Virus record (IMG/VR): IMGVR_UViG_3300044675_007121
Coordinates: 1 to 49,014 of that record
Length of the DNA stretch: 49,014 nucleotides
Reading direction: 5' to 3' (one strand)
DNA from: a virus
The position numbers were made by a program, and so were the translations under genes. Position 1 is the stretch's first letter, and each line of letters begins with the position of its first letter. This document shows positions 5,086 to 38,165 of this stretch, piece by piece. The notes beneath the pieces were generated by a model. The model saw nothing but the letters and a program-made list of their open reading frames with translations, made no database searches and was not told where the DNA came from.

Positions 5086-6965
5086 TTCATGGAGTCCCCC
5101 CAACTTTGTCCGATCTCCACGTCGCAGCGGCTTGGGACCTCAAGGCGTACAGCCCTGGCCATGATTTCGGCAGCCTGCTTTGCTTCTTCAAGCGTATTGA
5201 CGGACAGCGCGATTTCATCGTGCACCTGAAGACGGATGTCGAAGCCCGCTTCGTGAAGCGCGACCATTGCCGCTTTGGTCTGGTCGGCGGCTGACCCCTG
5301 GATGAGTTTGTTCAGTCCTTTGTACGTCCCGGAGCGCTTGATCCGCGGGCCGTATTCCAATACAGCCTGTTCGCGCGGAAGGGCCTTGTTGACGCCCCAT
5401 TCGACGGGCTCCCAGAGCGGAAACCGGCATTTTCGCCCGAGCAGTGTTCTGATTGCCCCGTTAGATGCAGGGTGCTCGATCCTGCGCATCACGGCGTCTA
5501 CGGTGCCCTTTAGGAAGGGTACCTTTTGATGAAGAGAAGATATGATTTCAGACGCTTCTTCTACGGGCAAGTCCAGCTCTTGCGCAATCTTGGCTTTCCC
5601 AGCCCCATAAAGGATGGCAAGTCCTATCGTCTTCGCGGTCTTGCGTTTTATGCCAGCCAAGTCCGCCACCATCTGGTGAAAGTCGGTACCGGGGTCATCG
5701 CGGTACGCCTGCGCCATCTTCTCCGCACCTGGAAGCCCCAGGAGCGACGCGTAATGCACCAATAGCCGCGGCTCCTGCGAACTAAAGTCAATCGACGCCC
5801 ACTGCTTGCCTTCTTCCGGCAAGAACAGCCCGCGGACCATCGGTCCGAGAACCTCGTGCCGCGCCATCACCTGTTGAAGGTTTGGGTTTGCGGCGGATAG
5901 GCGCCCGGTTACGGTTCCGCCGTCCTCGTTGCGCATCTGGTTGAAATGCGTATGAATGCGCCCATCCTTGGCGCTGTGCTTAAGGTAGGGCTCCAAAAAC
6001 GTGTTGTGCGTCTTGTTGAATTCGCGTGCTTCAAGGATCTTCTTGGCCATGGGGTGCGCATGGCTGTCTAAGAAGGTTTTGGTGAAGCTAGGTGCACCAT
6101 TGGCCGTTTTGGGATATTGAATGCCTTGGCGATCAAACGCTGTTGCGATGCTAACCGCCGACCAGATATCCACGGATACCCCAGCCTGTTCTTTGATAAA
6201 GCGCAGGATTTCGGCTTCTTTCTTGCGCAGGTCTTCTACATGGCGCTGGCATTTTTCGCGATCAAAACGGATACCCTTCAGGGTGACGTCCACGAGGACA
6301 GGCAGTACGCGCGTCTCAAGATCAAAGATGGATTCCAGTTCTTCACGCGCCAAAAGGGCTTTGAAGTGTTGCCATAACTTGAGTGTCAGCGCGGCGTCCT
6401 GCTCTGCGTACTCTCCAACGTGCATAGCAGGCAGCTTCCACAATTCCTTCTTGGCATGCACGCCAAAATCCTGGGCCGCGATCTTCAGTCCTTGTTCCGA
6501 CTTAACCTCTTTCAGGTAGTCGAATCCAAGCGAATTAAGCGCGTAACTGAACCTGTTTTCGTCCAGCAGCGGCGCAGCCAGCATCGTGTCTAGTATTCGG
6601 CCGTTGATCGTAAACCCGCTTGCCCGGAGCCATCCTGCGTCATACGCGGCGTTGTGCATGATCTTGTCTGCAGGGAGGGAAAGCACCTCCGCAACCCATC
6701 GCTCAACAATACGCCGATCAAGATTGCCGCCACCGCCATGAGCCACGGGAAAATACCCTGACCATCCATCCACAGCCACAGCGTAACCGACGATGTAGCC
6801 ATCCCCCCTAGGCCAACCCGGACCCATGGTCTCAAGGTTTGGGTCGCATGTCTCAAGGTCAATTGCAATCTCCTTGGCAGAAGATAAATCTGGAAATGTC
6901 TGCGGAGGCACCCATTCAGATTGAATGGGAAACATCGCAGTCGTGCGCATGCACCGCTTACTCAC
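5082..6965 (-). CDS. Family A DNA polymerase with 3'-5' exonuclease
   Basis: This 627-residue polymerase replicates the phage genome. The proofreading domain shows DLET (36-39), a HNAAYDAGWL motif and YAEQDAALT. The polymerase domain shows motif A as SIDFSSQEPR (about 394-403), motif B as RKTAKTIGLAILYG (441-454) and motif C as LQVHDEI (about 578-584). There is no 5'-3' exonuclease domain, as usual for phage enzymes. Position 449, equivalent to E. coli Pol I Phe762, is leucine, an alteration known in viral polymerases. The GTG start overlaps the helicase stop (GTGA); ATGs at residues 6 and 11 are alternatives. It forms a tight operon with primase and helicase. Confidence 0.93.
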   Translation of the reverse strand: MSKRCMRTTAMFPIQSEWVPPQTFPDLSSAKEIAIDLETCDPNLETMGPGWPRGDGYIVGYAVAVDGWSGYFPVAHGGGGNLDRRIVERWVAEVLSLPADKIMHNAAYDAGWLRASGFTINGRILDTMLAAPLLDENRFSYALNSLGFDYLKEVKSEQGLKIAAQDFGVHAKKELWKLPAMHVGEYAEQDAALTLKLWQHFKALLAREELESIFDLETRVLPVLVDVTLKGIRFDREKCQRHVEDLRKKEAEILRFIKEQAGVSVDIWSAVSIATAFDRQGIQYPKTANGAPSFTKTFLDSHAHPMAKKILEAREFNKTHNTFLEPYLKHSAKDGRIHTHFNQMRNEDGGTVTGRLSAANPNLQQVMARHEVLGPMVRGLFLPEEGKQWASIDFSSQEPRLLVHYASLLGLPGAEKMAQAYRDDPGTDFHQMVADLAGIKRKTAKTIGLAILYGAGKAKIAQELDLPVEEASEIISSLHQKVPFLKGTVDAVMRRIEHPASNGAIRTLLGRKCRFPLWEPVEWGVNKALPREQAVLEYGPRIKRSGTYKGLNKLIQGSAADQTKAAMVALHEAGFDIRLQVHDEIALSVNTLEEAKQAAEIMARAVRLEVPSRCDVEIGQSWGDSMK

Positions 6966-8494
6966 AATCGGAATCCTTTCTGAACATTCTTAGGCATCAC
7001 TATGTGCAGGCTTTGCCTAGCGCGAGTAACGCCGACATAGAGTAACCTATTGACACTATCTGAGTCACGCTCGTAATCAAGTGCGAACTTAGTAGTTAGG
7101 TCGCTCAGTAGTAATACGTTGTCTGCCTCACCGCCTTTAGCGCCGTGGATCGTGGACAGTCGTATGGGTGCCCTGTCCGTAAGCCTTATGCCACGCCGCA
7201 GCAATGCGATGATGTACCGCCTGCGGTCTTCCGATATCTTTGACAGCGCTTCGTGCCATATGACGTCAGTCGTTAGCCCATGGTGTTCGCGCAGGCATGC
7301 CATATCGAACATTGAGTCTTGGTCCGCGGTCCGTAGACCCCTGTGCCCCTTAAGTAGAAAATCGGGACTTAGGTACTTGTAGATGGTTTTAGCGGTAGAG
7401 AATGACACTTTTTGGCCCTTTCTAAGCGTCTCCCACCCAAGAACGGCGGTAAGAATTTCGTCAGATATGGACCGTTGTCCGTGACGCTCGAACAATAGCC
7501 CTTGGCTCTTGAGCCAGTCATACATTCCGGACAGCATGTAATTTGCCGCTGCAAGCACAAGCCACTCTCCGCGGCTCACGTCTACATTGTGCCAATCGGT
7601 GTAATACTGGACTTCACCCTCGCTATCCCTTGGATTCCATGTCTTATCCTGCTTATTCCTGATCCGCTTTCCTACCTCGGATGCAATCTCATGCACACGT
7701 CTTGGCACTCGCCAGGACTGTGAAAGGACGATGGTCTCTCCTTCGTGGGTAAGAAACGAATCAACGTCCGCCCCTGCCCATGTGTACACCGCCTGTTGAT
7801 CGTCTCCGGCTATGTAGGTCTTACCTGCCTTGGAGATAAGAGTCTCAACGAGTTTCCACTGTAGACGTGATAGGTCCTGAGCCTCATCGATGATCAGCAC
7901 ATCAAGGTAAGGAAGACGGTCCTTTGACTGCACCGCCAATTCCAGCAGATCAGTGAAGTCAATCAGATTCCTGGAATCCCTATAGTGGCGGTACGCCCGC
8001 TCCACGTACTCAAAGTGGAACCACTCCACCCGCATACTGGACTGGTTGTAATGCGTTCTAAGGTCTAGGCCCTTGATCCGTGCAACATTGATCTCGTTGA
8101 GTACGGGGTTGTCTGTCTGTACAAGGAACTCATCGCCGTCGCCCAACAGACCTATCTGGATGCCCGCCTCCTTGGCAAATTCGTTGTAGTTCTCGGCGGA
8201 CATCATGTCTTTCTGGTTTATGCCTAGACAACGATAGGCAAGGCTGTGCAGAGTCCTGAACCACGGAAAATCCACCTCTGGTCGCAGTTCGGGGAACTTC
8301 TCAATGGCACGATCCCGCGCCTCCGTGGCAGCCTTCCGGGTGAAACTGAAATATCCGATCCTTGAAGGTTCAGTACCGTTGCTAAGTTCCTGCTGAACAA
8401 TGTTCAAGAGAAAAGTGGTTTTGCCTGACCCAAGTCAAGGCGGGCCGAAGACTTTATATGTCTTCGGCCCTTGCTCCTTTTCGTCGGTACGCAT
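6962..8494 (-). CDS. UvrD/Rep-like superfamily 1 helicase, interrupted by TGA in the P-loop
   Basis: An ATP-driven DNA helicase for replication or repair. Visible motifs are Ia-like FSFTRKAATEA, II LIIDEAQDLS, III IAGDDQQAVYTWAG, V TIHGAKGGEADNVLL and VI LLYVGVTRARQSL. The natural start is ATG 8494, which overlaps the primase stop (TAATG). From there 19 codons run to KVFGPP, then comes TGA (8437-8435), then LGSGKTTFLLN in the same frame. Removing six bases would restore GPPGSGKTT, a perfect Walker A. The largest intact ORF begins at a TTG at 8407 and lacks the P-loop. Hence the helicase is dead, read through or bypassed, or the six bases are a sequence error. The gene is otherwise intact and overlaps polA by four bases. 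Confidence 0.8.
8424..8470 (-). promoter_or_regulatory. Tandem hairpins around the helicase internal stop
   Basis: On the mRNA (minus) strand a perfect 11-bp stem, GGGCCGAAGAC / GTCTTCGGCCC, with a 7-base loop spans 8470-8442. Two bases further, CCTTGAC-TTGG-GTCAGG (8440-8424) can form a second stem of 6 bp with one bulged base. The in-frame TGA lies in its 5' arm. Both lie within coding sequence at the start of the helicase gene. Confidence 0.6.
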
Positions 8495-10026
8495 TAGAAC
8501 GGACTCGCAGGTTTGGATTGCGTATGAGTACGGAACGGAGCATCTTGGCCCGCGAACCGTGGCATTCTCCAGCACCTAGCAGTACGTCCTTTAAGCAGTA
8601 GACTGATGGGTTCGCCGCCAAGTTCCCGAATACGCTGCGCCATCTTAGGGTGTGAAAGCCCTTTGAAGTTGTTCCGCGTCAAATGGGCCTCAAGGTCCTT
8701 CATCCTGAAGTAAACCTTCGCCTCATCGTCATTCACCCATGGCCTGCCCATGAGGATTTCATCACGGTCCAATGCCTGTTGCATGTGGGTTGTGAACTCC
8801 TCAACCAGATCATTGAACCGACCGGTAAGACTGGTGTCCTCAGTGGCCTCGGTAATCTGCTCGCTTTCCACCATTTCACGCAGCAGGCCATTGAGCATCT
8901 GCTCCCAATCCTGCTTTCGCAGAGTCGGAGGGAGGAGGTTCAGGCGATCCATGCATGCCTTCTGAAAGGCAGCTTGGTTGAACAGATTGTCCGTATCCAA
9001 CTCCACCCGCTTGCCGTTGACATCAAGAAACCATAACGGCGGGTCGCTGTTGTATTTTGACAACGAAGATAGCTGTGGGGCATCGGGAGCATCCCCTCCG
9101 ATACCGAACTTCCTAGTGCGGCACAGCCCACTGTTGCAAAAGCTATTTAGCGGAGCGTCCTTGCACTTGTACTTATAGTCCTTCTTATGTAGCTGCTTAA
9201 TGACGACTTGCAGCTCGTTGTTCGGTAGAGCCGGCTGCACGTACTTCAGGTTGTGTGCGACCAGTTCGTCTTCCCACACGGAAGGCTTGGCACGCTTTAG
9301 GTACACCCCAATAGCAAACAGCGCGTTGTTTCTTGTCCCTTCAGGTACCCCCCTGCTGCATATGGCTTGCAAGCAAGGCGGTCCGTCCTTGATGGGGTGA
9401 TCAGGCTTCTTTGGTTCTTCGGGTGCAGGAACCGTGGGCTCCTGTACAAACCGGTCGTAAAGCGCGTAAAACTCCTCAAGGGTCGCGGCGCTGCCGTCAT
9501 CCTTGATTGCGTAACGCATAGTCCTGTCCCCGCCAAAGTAAGGCAGGTTCAGGAAGTTCCCGGTGTCGCCACGCTCAATCAGGATTTCGGACTGTTTAGG
9601 GAATATCTCCCTGCCCGATTCACCTAGTACGGAAGCGCATGCCTTGAGATAGCGCTGCATGTCACCGGCTGCCATAGGAGCCTTGACAAACAAAAACACA
9701 TGCGCGCCACCTGATTTGCTGCGGCACACAACCAAAGGCAACTCCAGTTCCCTGATCTTGTTGACCAATCCAGTGTGGTCCAGGGGGTACTGGTCAATAT
9801 CAATGCATCCCCATATGCATGTGTTGTCTGCACGGATCGGGATGATTCCCAGGGATGGCTCGTTACCTTGAAGGTGCTTCTCCCACAGATCATCTGTGGG
9901 AGGCTTGCGCACCACAACAGCCTTGCCGGCCTGTTTTCCGCCACTCCTTGTGCTGTCTATACGATAGGTACCGTATGCGACGTCAAGGCCAGCGAAAATC
10001 GACTTGAATCGTGCGGTGTTCGTCAT
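8494..10026 (-). CDS. Archaeo-eukaryotic-type primase (TOTE/PrimPol-like)
   Basis: A 510-residue primase making primers for the family A polymerase. The catalytic core is recognisable: CIDIDQYP gives the DxD pair (Asp76, Asp78), followed by CRSKSGGAHVFLF (101-113, the SxGxH element), and then IFPKQSEI and GNFLNLPYFGGDRTMRYA, as in primases of the TOTE-conflict/AEP type. A C-terminal region (about 225-310) resembles primase C-terminal domains (GTRNNALFAIGVYLKRAK) and ends with cysteines (YKCKD...CNSGLC) that may bind zinc. No helicase domain is fused. It is followed by the helicase with a TAATG overlap. A 66-base gap with a probable terminator separates it from the upstream SSB-like gene. Confidence 0.8.
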   Translation of the reverse strand: MTNTARFKSIFAGLDVAYGTYRIDSTRSGGKQAGKAVVVRKPPTDDLWEKHLQGNEPSLGIIPIRADNTCIWGCIDIDQYPLDHTGLVNKIRELELPLVVCRSKSGGAHVFLFVKAPMAAGDMQRYLKACASVLGESGREIFPKQSEILIERGDTGNFLNLPYFGGDRTMRYAIKDDGSAATLEEFYALYDRFVQEPTVPAPEEPKKPDHPIKDGPPCLQAICSRGVPEGTRNNALFAIGVYLKRAKPSVWEDELVAHNLKYVQPALPNNELQVVIKQLHKKDYKYKCKDAPLNSFCNSGLCRTRKFGIGGDAPDAPQLSSLSKYNSDPPLWFLDVNGKRVELDTDNLFNQAAFQKACMDRLNLLPPTLRKQDWEQMLNGLLREMVESEQITEATEDTSLTGRFNDLVEEFTTHMQQALDRDEILMGRPWVNDDEAKVYFRMKDLEAHLTRNNFKGLSHPKMAQRIRELGGEPISLLLKGRTARCWRMPRFAGQDAPFRTHTQSKPASPF

Positions 10027-37200: not shown

Positions 37201-37241
37201 CTTTGAACACCATCCGCAAGTATTTGCGGATGGTGTTTCAA
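37201..37241 (-). terminator. Strong stem-loop after the major capsid gene
   Basis: AACACCATCCGCAA and its exact complement (37205-37218 / 37223-37236) form a 14-bp stem with a GTAT loop. It is extended by TTTGA/TCAAA after a one-base bulge. It begins 19 bases past the capsid stop. No U-tract follows on the minus strand, so it may be a leaky terminator, an RNA 3'-end stabiliser or a processing site. Confidence 0.55.
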
Positions 37242-37259
37242 AAAACACACTACTAGTGC

Positions 37260-38165
37260 TTAGGCACCCGACACGCCAAACAAGCCGCGCGGATCGGAGA
37301 ACCCAAACGAGTAGCGCTCCCGAGCCTTGTAGCGCACGTTGCCCGTGTCGAAGTCACCCTCGAAACCGGTCTTCATCGCCACACGCGTGAAACCCTTCAT
37401 GCCATTCGGAGCATCCGTCTTGATGAAGAATGCGTCCGGATCCGTCAGGAAGTTGTTCACGACATAGCCCTGGGGCAACATACCTTTGTTGCGCAGCGCA
37501 TTGATATCGTTGTCTGCCGTGCCAGGACGGAGCGACGACTCAAGCAACCGATCAGCCACAAACATCAGTTCCTTGGGAATGATCAGCTTGAGACCCTGAA
37601 CCGCGATCTTCAGGCCACGCTCATCGGTAAAGCCTGCAATATCAATCATTGCCTGCTCAAGCGAGGTCTCGGAGAGGTCCGCCTGGGTAGACAGCGTGTT
37701 ACGCAGATCAGGGCCACTCAGCGTCGGATGGTCAACCGCGCACAACGCCTTGCCATCACCACCGATGGAGGTGGTAAAGGCGCCGTTGAGCAATGCTGCC
37801 GCCTTGATCTGCTTGGTCTGAGCCATCGAACGGGCCAAAGCCTTGGTGTACCGTGCCGACAGACGGTCATAGAGGTTGTCCTCAATGGCCTCTTCAGTCA
37901 GCGAGAACGCCAGGGCGATGGTCTCGTGCGTGTACCGCGCGGTGTAGGTTTCCTGCGCTTGGTCATATGCAACACCAGCGCCCTCATTCTTCACCGGAGC
38001 CTCGCCGAAGCCTGATTCCATCACTTCCTCTTCGAACGCACGGTCCGAAGTTTCCATGGTGTAAATCTGCTCGTGTTGGTTCTCGTAGTTCTTGTACTCC
38101 AGACCGAACAGGGCGTTCAGACCGGGCTCCAATTCCTTAACTAGTTGGGAACGTGAAATAGCCAT
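37260..38165 (-). CDS. Major capsid protein (HK97-fold type)
   Basis: A 301-residue protein starting MAISRSQLVKELEPGLNALFGLEYKNY. It follows scaffold and head genes and is followed by a strong hairpin, as expected for the most abundant gene. Features typical of Mu gpT-like and podovirus capsid proteins are ETIALAFSLTEEAIEDNLYDRLSARYTKALARSMAQTKQ, CAVDHPTLSG, GLKLIIPKELMFVADRLLES and a C-terminal RYSFGFSDPRGLFGV. It forms the icosahedral shell. There is no N-terminal delta domain, in agreement with a separate scaffold protein. Start follows GGAG. Confidence 0.85.
   Translation of the reverse strand: MAISRSQLVKELEPGLNALFGLEYKNYENQHEQIYTMETSDRAFEEEVMESGFGEAPVKNEGAGVAYDQAQETYTARYTHETIALAFSLTEEAIEDNLYDRLSARYTKALARSMAQTKQIKAAALLNGAFTTSIGGDGKALCAVDHPTLSGPDLRNTLSTQADLSETSLEQAMIDIAGFTDERGLKIAVQGLKLIIPKELMFVADRLLESSLRPGTADNDINALRNKGMLPQGYVVNNFLTDPDAFFIKTDAPNGMKGFTRVAMKTGFEGDFDTGNVRYKARERYSFGFSDPRGLFGVSGA

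Follow-up and report, generated by a model that had tools for sequence, protein, structure and literature searches.

The interrupted helicase gene

The window, a stretch of 49,014 nucleotides of viral DNA (IMG/VR record IMGVR_UViG_3300044675_007121), carries on its minus strand a primase-like gene and, directly behind it, a gene for a UvrD/Rep-type DNA helicase (Table 1). The helicase matches the Pfam families UvrD-helicase (PF00580), UvrD_C_2 and AAA_19; it had been taken, from sequence alone, for a replicative-type enzyme, and this is corrected here, the protein not being of the DnaB type. Its ATG overlaps the primase stop as TAATG. The frame encodes MRTDEKEQGPKTYKVFGPP and then meets TGA, after which CTT and GGG TCA GGC AAA ACC (LGSGKT) follow in frame, with 488 open codons beyond the insert before the terminal TGA. 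The Walker A box is written as GPP-(TGACTT)-GSGKTT. When TGACTT is deleted in silico the protein reads KVFGPPGSGKTTFLLN, with the Walker A sequence GPPGSGKTT, the same as in the helicase of phage DSL-LC04.

The window has matches to 30 DSL-LC04 proteins, and among these the helicase alone is interrupted; TGA is a normal stop in this genome, where it ends other genes at orthologous places. The contig is therefore not decayed and its code is not changed. A suppressor tRNA is ruled out along with a changed code, since TGA is used in this way and a search of the window for tRNA genes found none. Selenocysteine at the TGA is also ruled out because a bacterial SECIS element has no room and all three stops occur among relatives. 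In these respects the sequence-only reading held: the helicase start is fixed by the TAATG overlap, an in-frame TGA follows 19 codons, removal of six bases restores GPPGSGKTT, and a code change is excluded.

Table 1. Features of the helicase locus in the window, with int-alpA RNA loci of other contigs.
Feature	Position	Strand	Basis
Primase-like gene (AEP-TOTE domain), stop overlapping the helicase start	8494..10026	-	Domain match and relatives
Helicase gene, UvrD/Rep-type SF1 DNA helicase, TGA in frame at codon 20	6962..8494	-	Pfam and 65% identity to the DSL-LC04 helicase
AAGGAG, resembling a Shine-Dalgarno sequence, with the hairpin three bases downstream	8474..8479	-	Motif and relatives
Hairpin 5' arm (GGGCCGAAGAC), perfect 11-bp stem	8460..8470	-	Fold and shuffle analysis
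Hairpin 3' arm (GTCTTCGGCCC), coding V-F-G-P	8442..8452	-	Fold and shuffle analysis
Putative take-off codon CCT (second Pro of GPP)	8438..8440	-	Sequence; C absent from the third position in 33 distinct helicases
Six-base insertion TGACTT: stop TGA (8437-8435) and putative landing codon CTT (8434-8432)	8432..8437	-	Sequence and relatives
Resumption, GGG TCA GGC AAA ACC (GSGKT of Walker A)	8417..8431	-	Translation
int-alpA RNA, L175	5846-5911		Rfam RF02996
int-alpA RNA, L184	13913-13978	-	Rfam RF02996
int-alpA RNA, L196	5806-5871		Rfam RF02996
int-alpA RNA, ten more			Rfam RF02996

Recurrence among helicases and the codon rule

Most relatives of this helicase in IMG/VR have GPPG(S/T)GKTT, and several carry six extra bases at exactly the same place. 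A pattern scan with TRR in first position returned 45 contigs, 43 of them real. In a second scan no stop was demanded, and any seven bases (the last base of the Pro codon and six inserted) were accepted after the last CC of FGPP. Of the 41 contigs so found, 39 are real helicases, and the stop comes first in 39/39; the two stop-less matches are due to chance and are not P-loop helicases. Within this stop-agnostic scan (41 contigs), every six-base insertion in a P-loop helicase motif contained a stop.

The composition of the insert follows a strict rule. Among 33 distinct GPP genes the stops are TGA (13), TAA (13) and TAG (7), and the codon after the stop is only CTA, CTG, CTT, CCA, CCG or CCT. 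The putative take-off codon is CCA, CCG or CCU, with CCC in 0/33 compared with 32/103 plain relatives (Fisher 4e-5); the Pro codon preceding it uses CCC freely. Leu landing codons are never UUA, UUG or CUC, though these are common in the same genes (chance for 22 Leu codons, 3e-6). We infer that the permitted codons are those readable by a UGG anticodon with G.U allowed at the second position. If the middle G.U pair is permitted, take-off and landing codons could pair with one tRNA (CCD to CYD) in all cases. Identical take-off and landing codons occur only in a minority of genes, and most need the middle-position G.U pair.

The same design is found in other P-loop proteins. A scan for G-x-P / GKT detected it in short kinases with the motif RGVP, and a GKS scan added many more, including AAA_33, polynucleotide-kinase-like and other phage kinases. 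In the kinases the stop context is x-Pro-stop-C rather than Pro-Pro-stop-C. Helicases and kinases together amount to 93 contigs with about 70 genes distinct at 95% identity, from many separate metagenomes. Pro at take-off was fixed in every search pattern and CYD in two, and wider variants lie outside the survey. Because CYD was built into the two kinase scans, the codon rule rests on the two helicase scans, TRR-first and stop-agnostic. In 84,980 species genomes of cellular organisms the GPP form gave chance matches only. A DNA-similarity search among cultured phages did not turn up the element, and the cultured kinase relatives examined are annotated as uninterrupted.

The hairpin and the Shine-Dalgarno-like element

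The perfect 11-bp stem of the window encloses a loop of 7 nt, and a single base separates it from the codon CCT. No such stem was seen in shuffled sequence, and the region folds with z = -4.8. In the 40 stop-bearing helicase genes with enough upstream sequence for comparison, the stem adjoining the take-off codon has a mean length of 10.6 bp (z -4.5). The 103 plain relatives lack the hairpin, with corresponding values of 5.3 bp and 0.1 (p ~1e-20). AAGGAG or AGGAGG stands before the hairpin in 21/40 stop-bearing helicases and in 2/103 plain ones. When helicases and kinases are taken together, a stem of at least 8 bp is present in 65/68 distinct stop-bearing genes, and it ends 0-1 nt before the take-off codon in 65/68.

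The arms are wholly different between families (for example GGGCCGAAGAC, AGGGCCATGCAG, GGCCCCAGGAT, AACCCCTCTA and GATGCCTTTT), while the position where the 3' arm ends is the same. In the closest group 99.4% of cells pair, as against 35-62% with the partner slid. Classical covariation inside that group is weak, the arms being too conserved for it to be decisive (86/500 shuffles), so the argument for the hairpin is carried instead by the unrelated arm sequences across families.

The sequence-only reading had noted the perfect stem, and this proved to be a consistent part of the design among relatives. It had placed the end of the stem three bases before the TGA, which failed; the distance is four (one base and the codon CCU). 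It had also set the TGA within a second small stem. That stem exists, but comparison with homologous genes, which recovered the same six-base insertion and the 5' hairpin, did not find it conserved. As a possible take-off loop it was dropped, since in relatives swapped partners fold equally well (130/400 permutations). A stem-loop holding the stop is not needed for a six-base gap.

In the kinases L257, L264 and L258 no stem that reaches 8 bp clearly adjoins the take-off codon. The kinases L257, L264, L267 (MLIGLP*..GCGKST) and L258 carry the stop and CYD insertion without a clear hairpin of this kind, and they offer a natural test of whether the hairpin is essential.

Selection and gain or loss of the insert

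The interrupted genes are maintained as coding sequence. Downstream of the stop dN/dS is 0.009-0.37, and the frame there is under strong purifying selection. A +1 or -1 slip at the stop runs into a closed frame after a median of 10 or 18 codons, and a six-base skip leaves 489 open; frameshifting by one base in either direction was rejected on this ground, as both frames close quickly.

In a tree of 139 helicases the insert has changed state (gain or loss) at least 12 times, or 20 times by parsimony; the tree comes from a short search and is rough for long branches. One closely related pair differs in the insert. The helicases of L175 (insert) and L100 (no insert) are less than 1% different in protein sequence, and between them the segment that runs from the end of the primase gene to the P-loop has been swapped. 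Over near-identical pairs of stop-bearing and plain genes, co-conversion beside the insert is suggestive in L175/L100 alone, and overall the effect is not significant (p = 0.10).

Homing endonucleases beside the insert

In relatives the junction between primase and helicase holds either a homing-endonuclease gene or a gene for 85 amino acids. An HNH_3 homing-endonuclease gene lies directly upstream of 14/31 stop-bearing helicases and 0/97 plain ones (p = 1.5e-10); in the other 17/31 there is no HNH gene within 900 bases. The swapped stretch encodes such an endonuclease in L175, L184, L177 and others. Immediately 5' of the HNH_3 gene, 13/14 cassettes have the orphan RNA int-alpA (RF02996), which occurs in 0/14 stop-bearers without HNH and 0/20 plain relatives. 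This RNA may regulate the neighbouring endonuclease gene or act as a functional component of the mobile element. Nothing beyond incidental mention of int-alpA by name was found in the literature searched.

A different set of endonucleases accompanies several of the kinases, where NUMOD3 proteins with matches to TnsA-like or homing endonucleases are found. Upstream of the kinase gene in L224, L228, L259 and L270 the protein has NUMOD3 motifs and a TnsA-like domain of PD-(D/E)XK appearance, and these four proteins are probably homing endonucleases. Neither the association with homing endonucleases nor the recurrence in unrelated genes was within reach of the sequence-only reading.

The window has no HNH gene upstream and no int-alpA. 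We read its insert as a resident one, whose endonuclease has gone or never arrived.

In many plain relatives the 85-amino-acid gene (phrog_13182) separates primase from helicase; these include DSL-LC04, where it is annotated as 'sigma-G factor' (L002, 1727-1984). Some stop-bearers have the HNH gene in its place, others (L197, L205) retain it, and the window lacks it.

Proposed mechanism

The six bases are very likely (about 0.82) a programmed translational bypass site, an in-frame 'stop-hop'. The hop itself is inferred, as there are no product-level data. Having translated ...K-V-F-G-P-P, ribosomes would pause, peptidyl-tRNAPro sitting on CCU and the stop followed by C in the A site, where termination would be slowed by the Pro-Pro end and the stop-C context. 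C-terminal Pro-Pro is known to impair termination (PMC2998420). The hairpin directly 5' of the take-off codon could zip fully only once the mRNA moves back out of the ribosome, and its closing would pull the ribosome two codons forward; this role as motor is an inference. The tRNAPro, inferred to be the one with the UGG anticodon, would unpair from CCU and re-pair with CUU through a middle G.U pair, and decoding would restart at GGG. The predicted product is an intact GPPGSGKT helicase, and ribosomes that fail to hop would stop after 19 residues. In some genes the stop is preceded by only 8-10 codons, too few for a nascent-peptide signal like that of T4 gene 60, and the Pro-Pro end is conceivably a substitute.

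The insert appears to travel with a homing-endonuclease cassette, of which it would form the protected end. Conserved P-loop codons are split by the six bases; these codons are inferred to be the endonuclease target, and hopping would keep the target gene alive. The protective role is proposed by analogy, with no cleavage data. A bolder reading, which we consider likely, is that phages harbour a widespread class of mobile 'stop-hop' cassettes, associated with several homing-endonuclease families, that have arisen or been transferred many times and represent the first natural in-frame stop-hopping. In that reading endonucleases of the HNH type with int-alpA RNA, of the NUMOD3/GIY-YIG-like type and of the NUMOD3/TnsA-like type would target P-loop codons of essential ATPases and kinases. 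They would leave behind the six-base insert (stop and CYD) and the 5' hairpin, over which ribosomes hop.

Alternative explanations

The sequence-only reading had left a choice between six-base bypass, readthrough, inactivation and sequence error; the comparison strongly favours bypass. In ordinary stop-codon readthrough a tRNA would add a residue at the stop, giving GPP-X-(L/P)-GSGKT. This explanation would fit the leaky context of a stop with C behind it, the preserved frame, and the Leu or Pro codon that always comes next. However, all three stops are used (TAA in 13/33), the stop-agnostic scan met no relative with a sense codon at the stop position, where under readthrough one would be harmless, and the codons on either side obey the tRNAPro pairing rule. 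Readthrough is therefore disfavoured, and we regard it as very improbable. In addition, the next codon is limited at the codon level (no UUA, UUG, CUC or CCC) and not merely at the amino-acid level, and two added residues would break the fixed Walker A spacing.

Hairpin-guided removal of the six bases from the RNA, whether by micro-splicing, editing or skipping by RNA polymerase, would account for the constant position beside a strong hairpin. It gives no reason, however, for an initial stop and a tRNAPro-compatible codon, and to our knowledge no six-base intron mechanism exists. This explanation has very little in its favour.

Internal initiation, with AAGGAG and the hairpin bringing a start site to the P-loop, would yield a shortened protein. 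These elements precede the site in many helicases, a layout known from T4 genes 38 and 25 (PMC3014915). The in-frame codons, however, are CUU, CUA, CUG, CCA, CCG and CCU, mostly not start codons; the purine-rich site is missing from the kinase cases examined; and a protein started there would miss the first strand and half of Walker A. Such initiation is thus also a remote possibility.

An inactivated gene or a sequencing or assembly error, which one interrupted gene in one metagenome contig suggests at first sight, is all but excluded: an error because the insertion recurs in many independent contigs (93, with about 70 distinct genes from separate metagenomes), and a pseudogene because the downstream frame is under purifying selection, the hairpins moreover matching. 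A template-switch mutation or assembly artefact at the palindrome was dropped, as the same insertion occurs in unrelated contigs.

Relation to known systems

Efficient ribosome bypassing has so far largely meant one bacterial-virus example, T4 gene 60. In that gene ribosomes bypass 50 bases after a stop, and a 5' stem-loop has been proposed as the motor (PMC5009743). It has been suggested that the gap shields the gene from an HNH homing endonuclease encoded next to it (PMC5009743, PMC3014915). The genes described here share with it a stop directly after the take-off codon (in all real cases), a 5' stem-loop and a Shine-Dalgarno-like element. As in the T4 mobA/gene 60 cassette, a homing-type endonuclease gene adjoins the insert in some helicases and kinases, though not in the window itself. 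The differences are also clear. The gap is 6 rather than 50 bases, and CCD/CYD codons compatible with tRNAPro, a looser pairing, take the place of the identical GGA codons of T4. A nascent-peptide signal upstream would not have the space that it has in T4, reading continues in the zero frame, and many genes and families are involved instead of one.

The closest precedent is synthetic. In the E. coli 'stop-hops' of Weiss et al. 1987, peptidyl-tRNA hops over a stop to a codon two triplets on (cited in PMC5009743). There, as proposed here, one amino acid is specified by nine bases; the codons were matched and the constructs made in the laboratory, whereas the present genes are natural. A 2016 review regarded natural in-frame stop-hopping as unknown (PMC5009743), and a full-text search for the phrase 'stop hopping' found no later report in the literature searched, of which coverage was partial. 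The bypassing elements (byps) of Magnusiomyces mitochondria are likewise untranslated blocks inserted inside essential genes. They differ in being mitochondrial, at many sites per genome and seemingly independent of mRNA context (PMC5009743). The RF2 gene (prfB) has a +1 frameshift at CUU UGA C. It resembles the present case in the slow stop-C in the A site and the Shine-Dalgarno-like element, but its frame is shifted by one base and here the zero frame is kept.

If the reading is true, bypassing becomes a class and is no longer a curiosity: some 70 distinct genes share a six-base gap and a strict codon rule, with hairpins that vary. They would be minimal substrates for dissecting how ribosomes release and re-grip mRNA. 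They would also explain how mobile endonucleases invade the most conserved codons of essential genes, and annotation pipelines would be mis-starting such genes or mis-calling them broken.

Other observations

Two further features of the window are recorded. Helicase motif III (7810-7770) reads GDDQQAVYTWAGA, and the aligned relatives have GDDDQA. Just past the 3' end of the major-capsid gene (37260-38165) there is a perfect 14-bp hairpin with a 4-base loop (37206-37237), possibly a terminator. In other contigs, the stop-bearing helicases L192 and L183 seem to have intein-like insertions further downstream, so that a single gene would hold two kinds of insert, one self-removing and one skipped.
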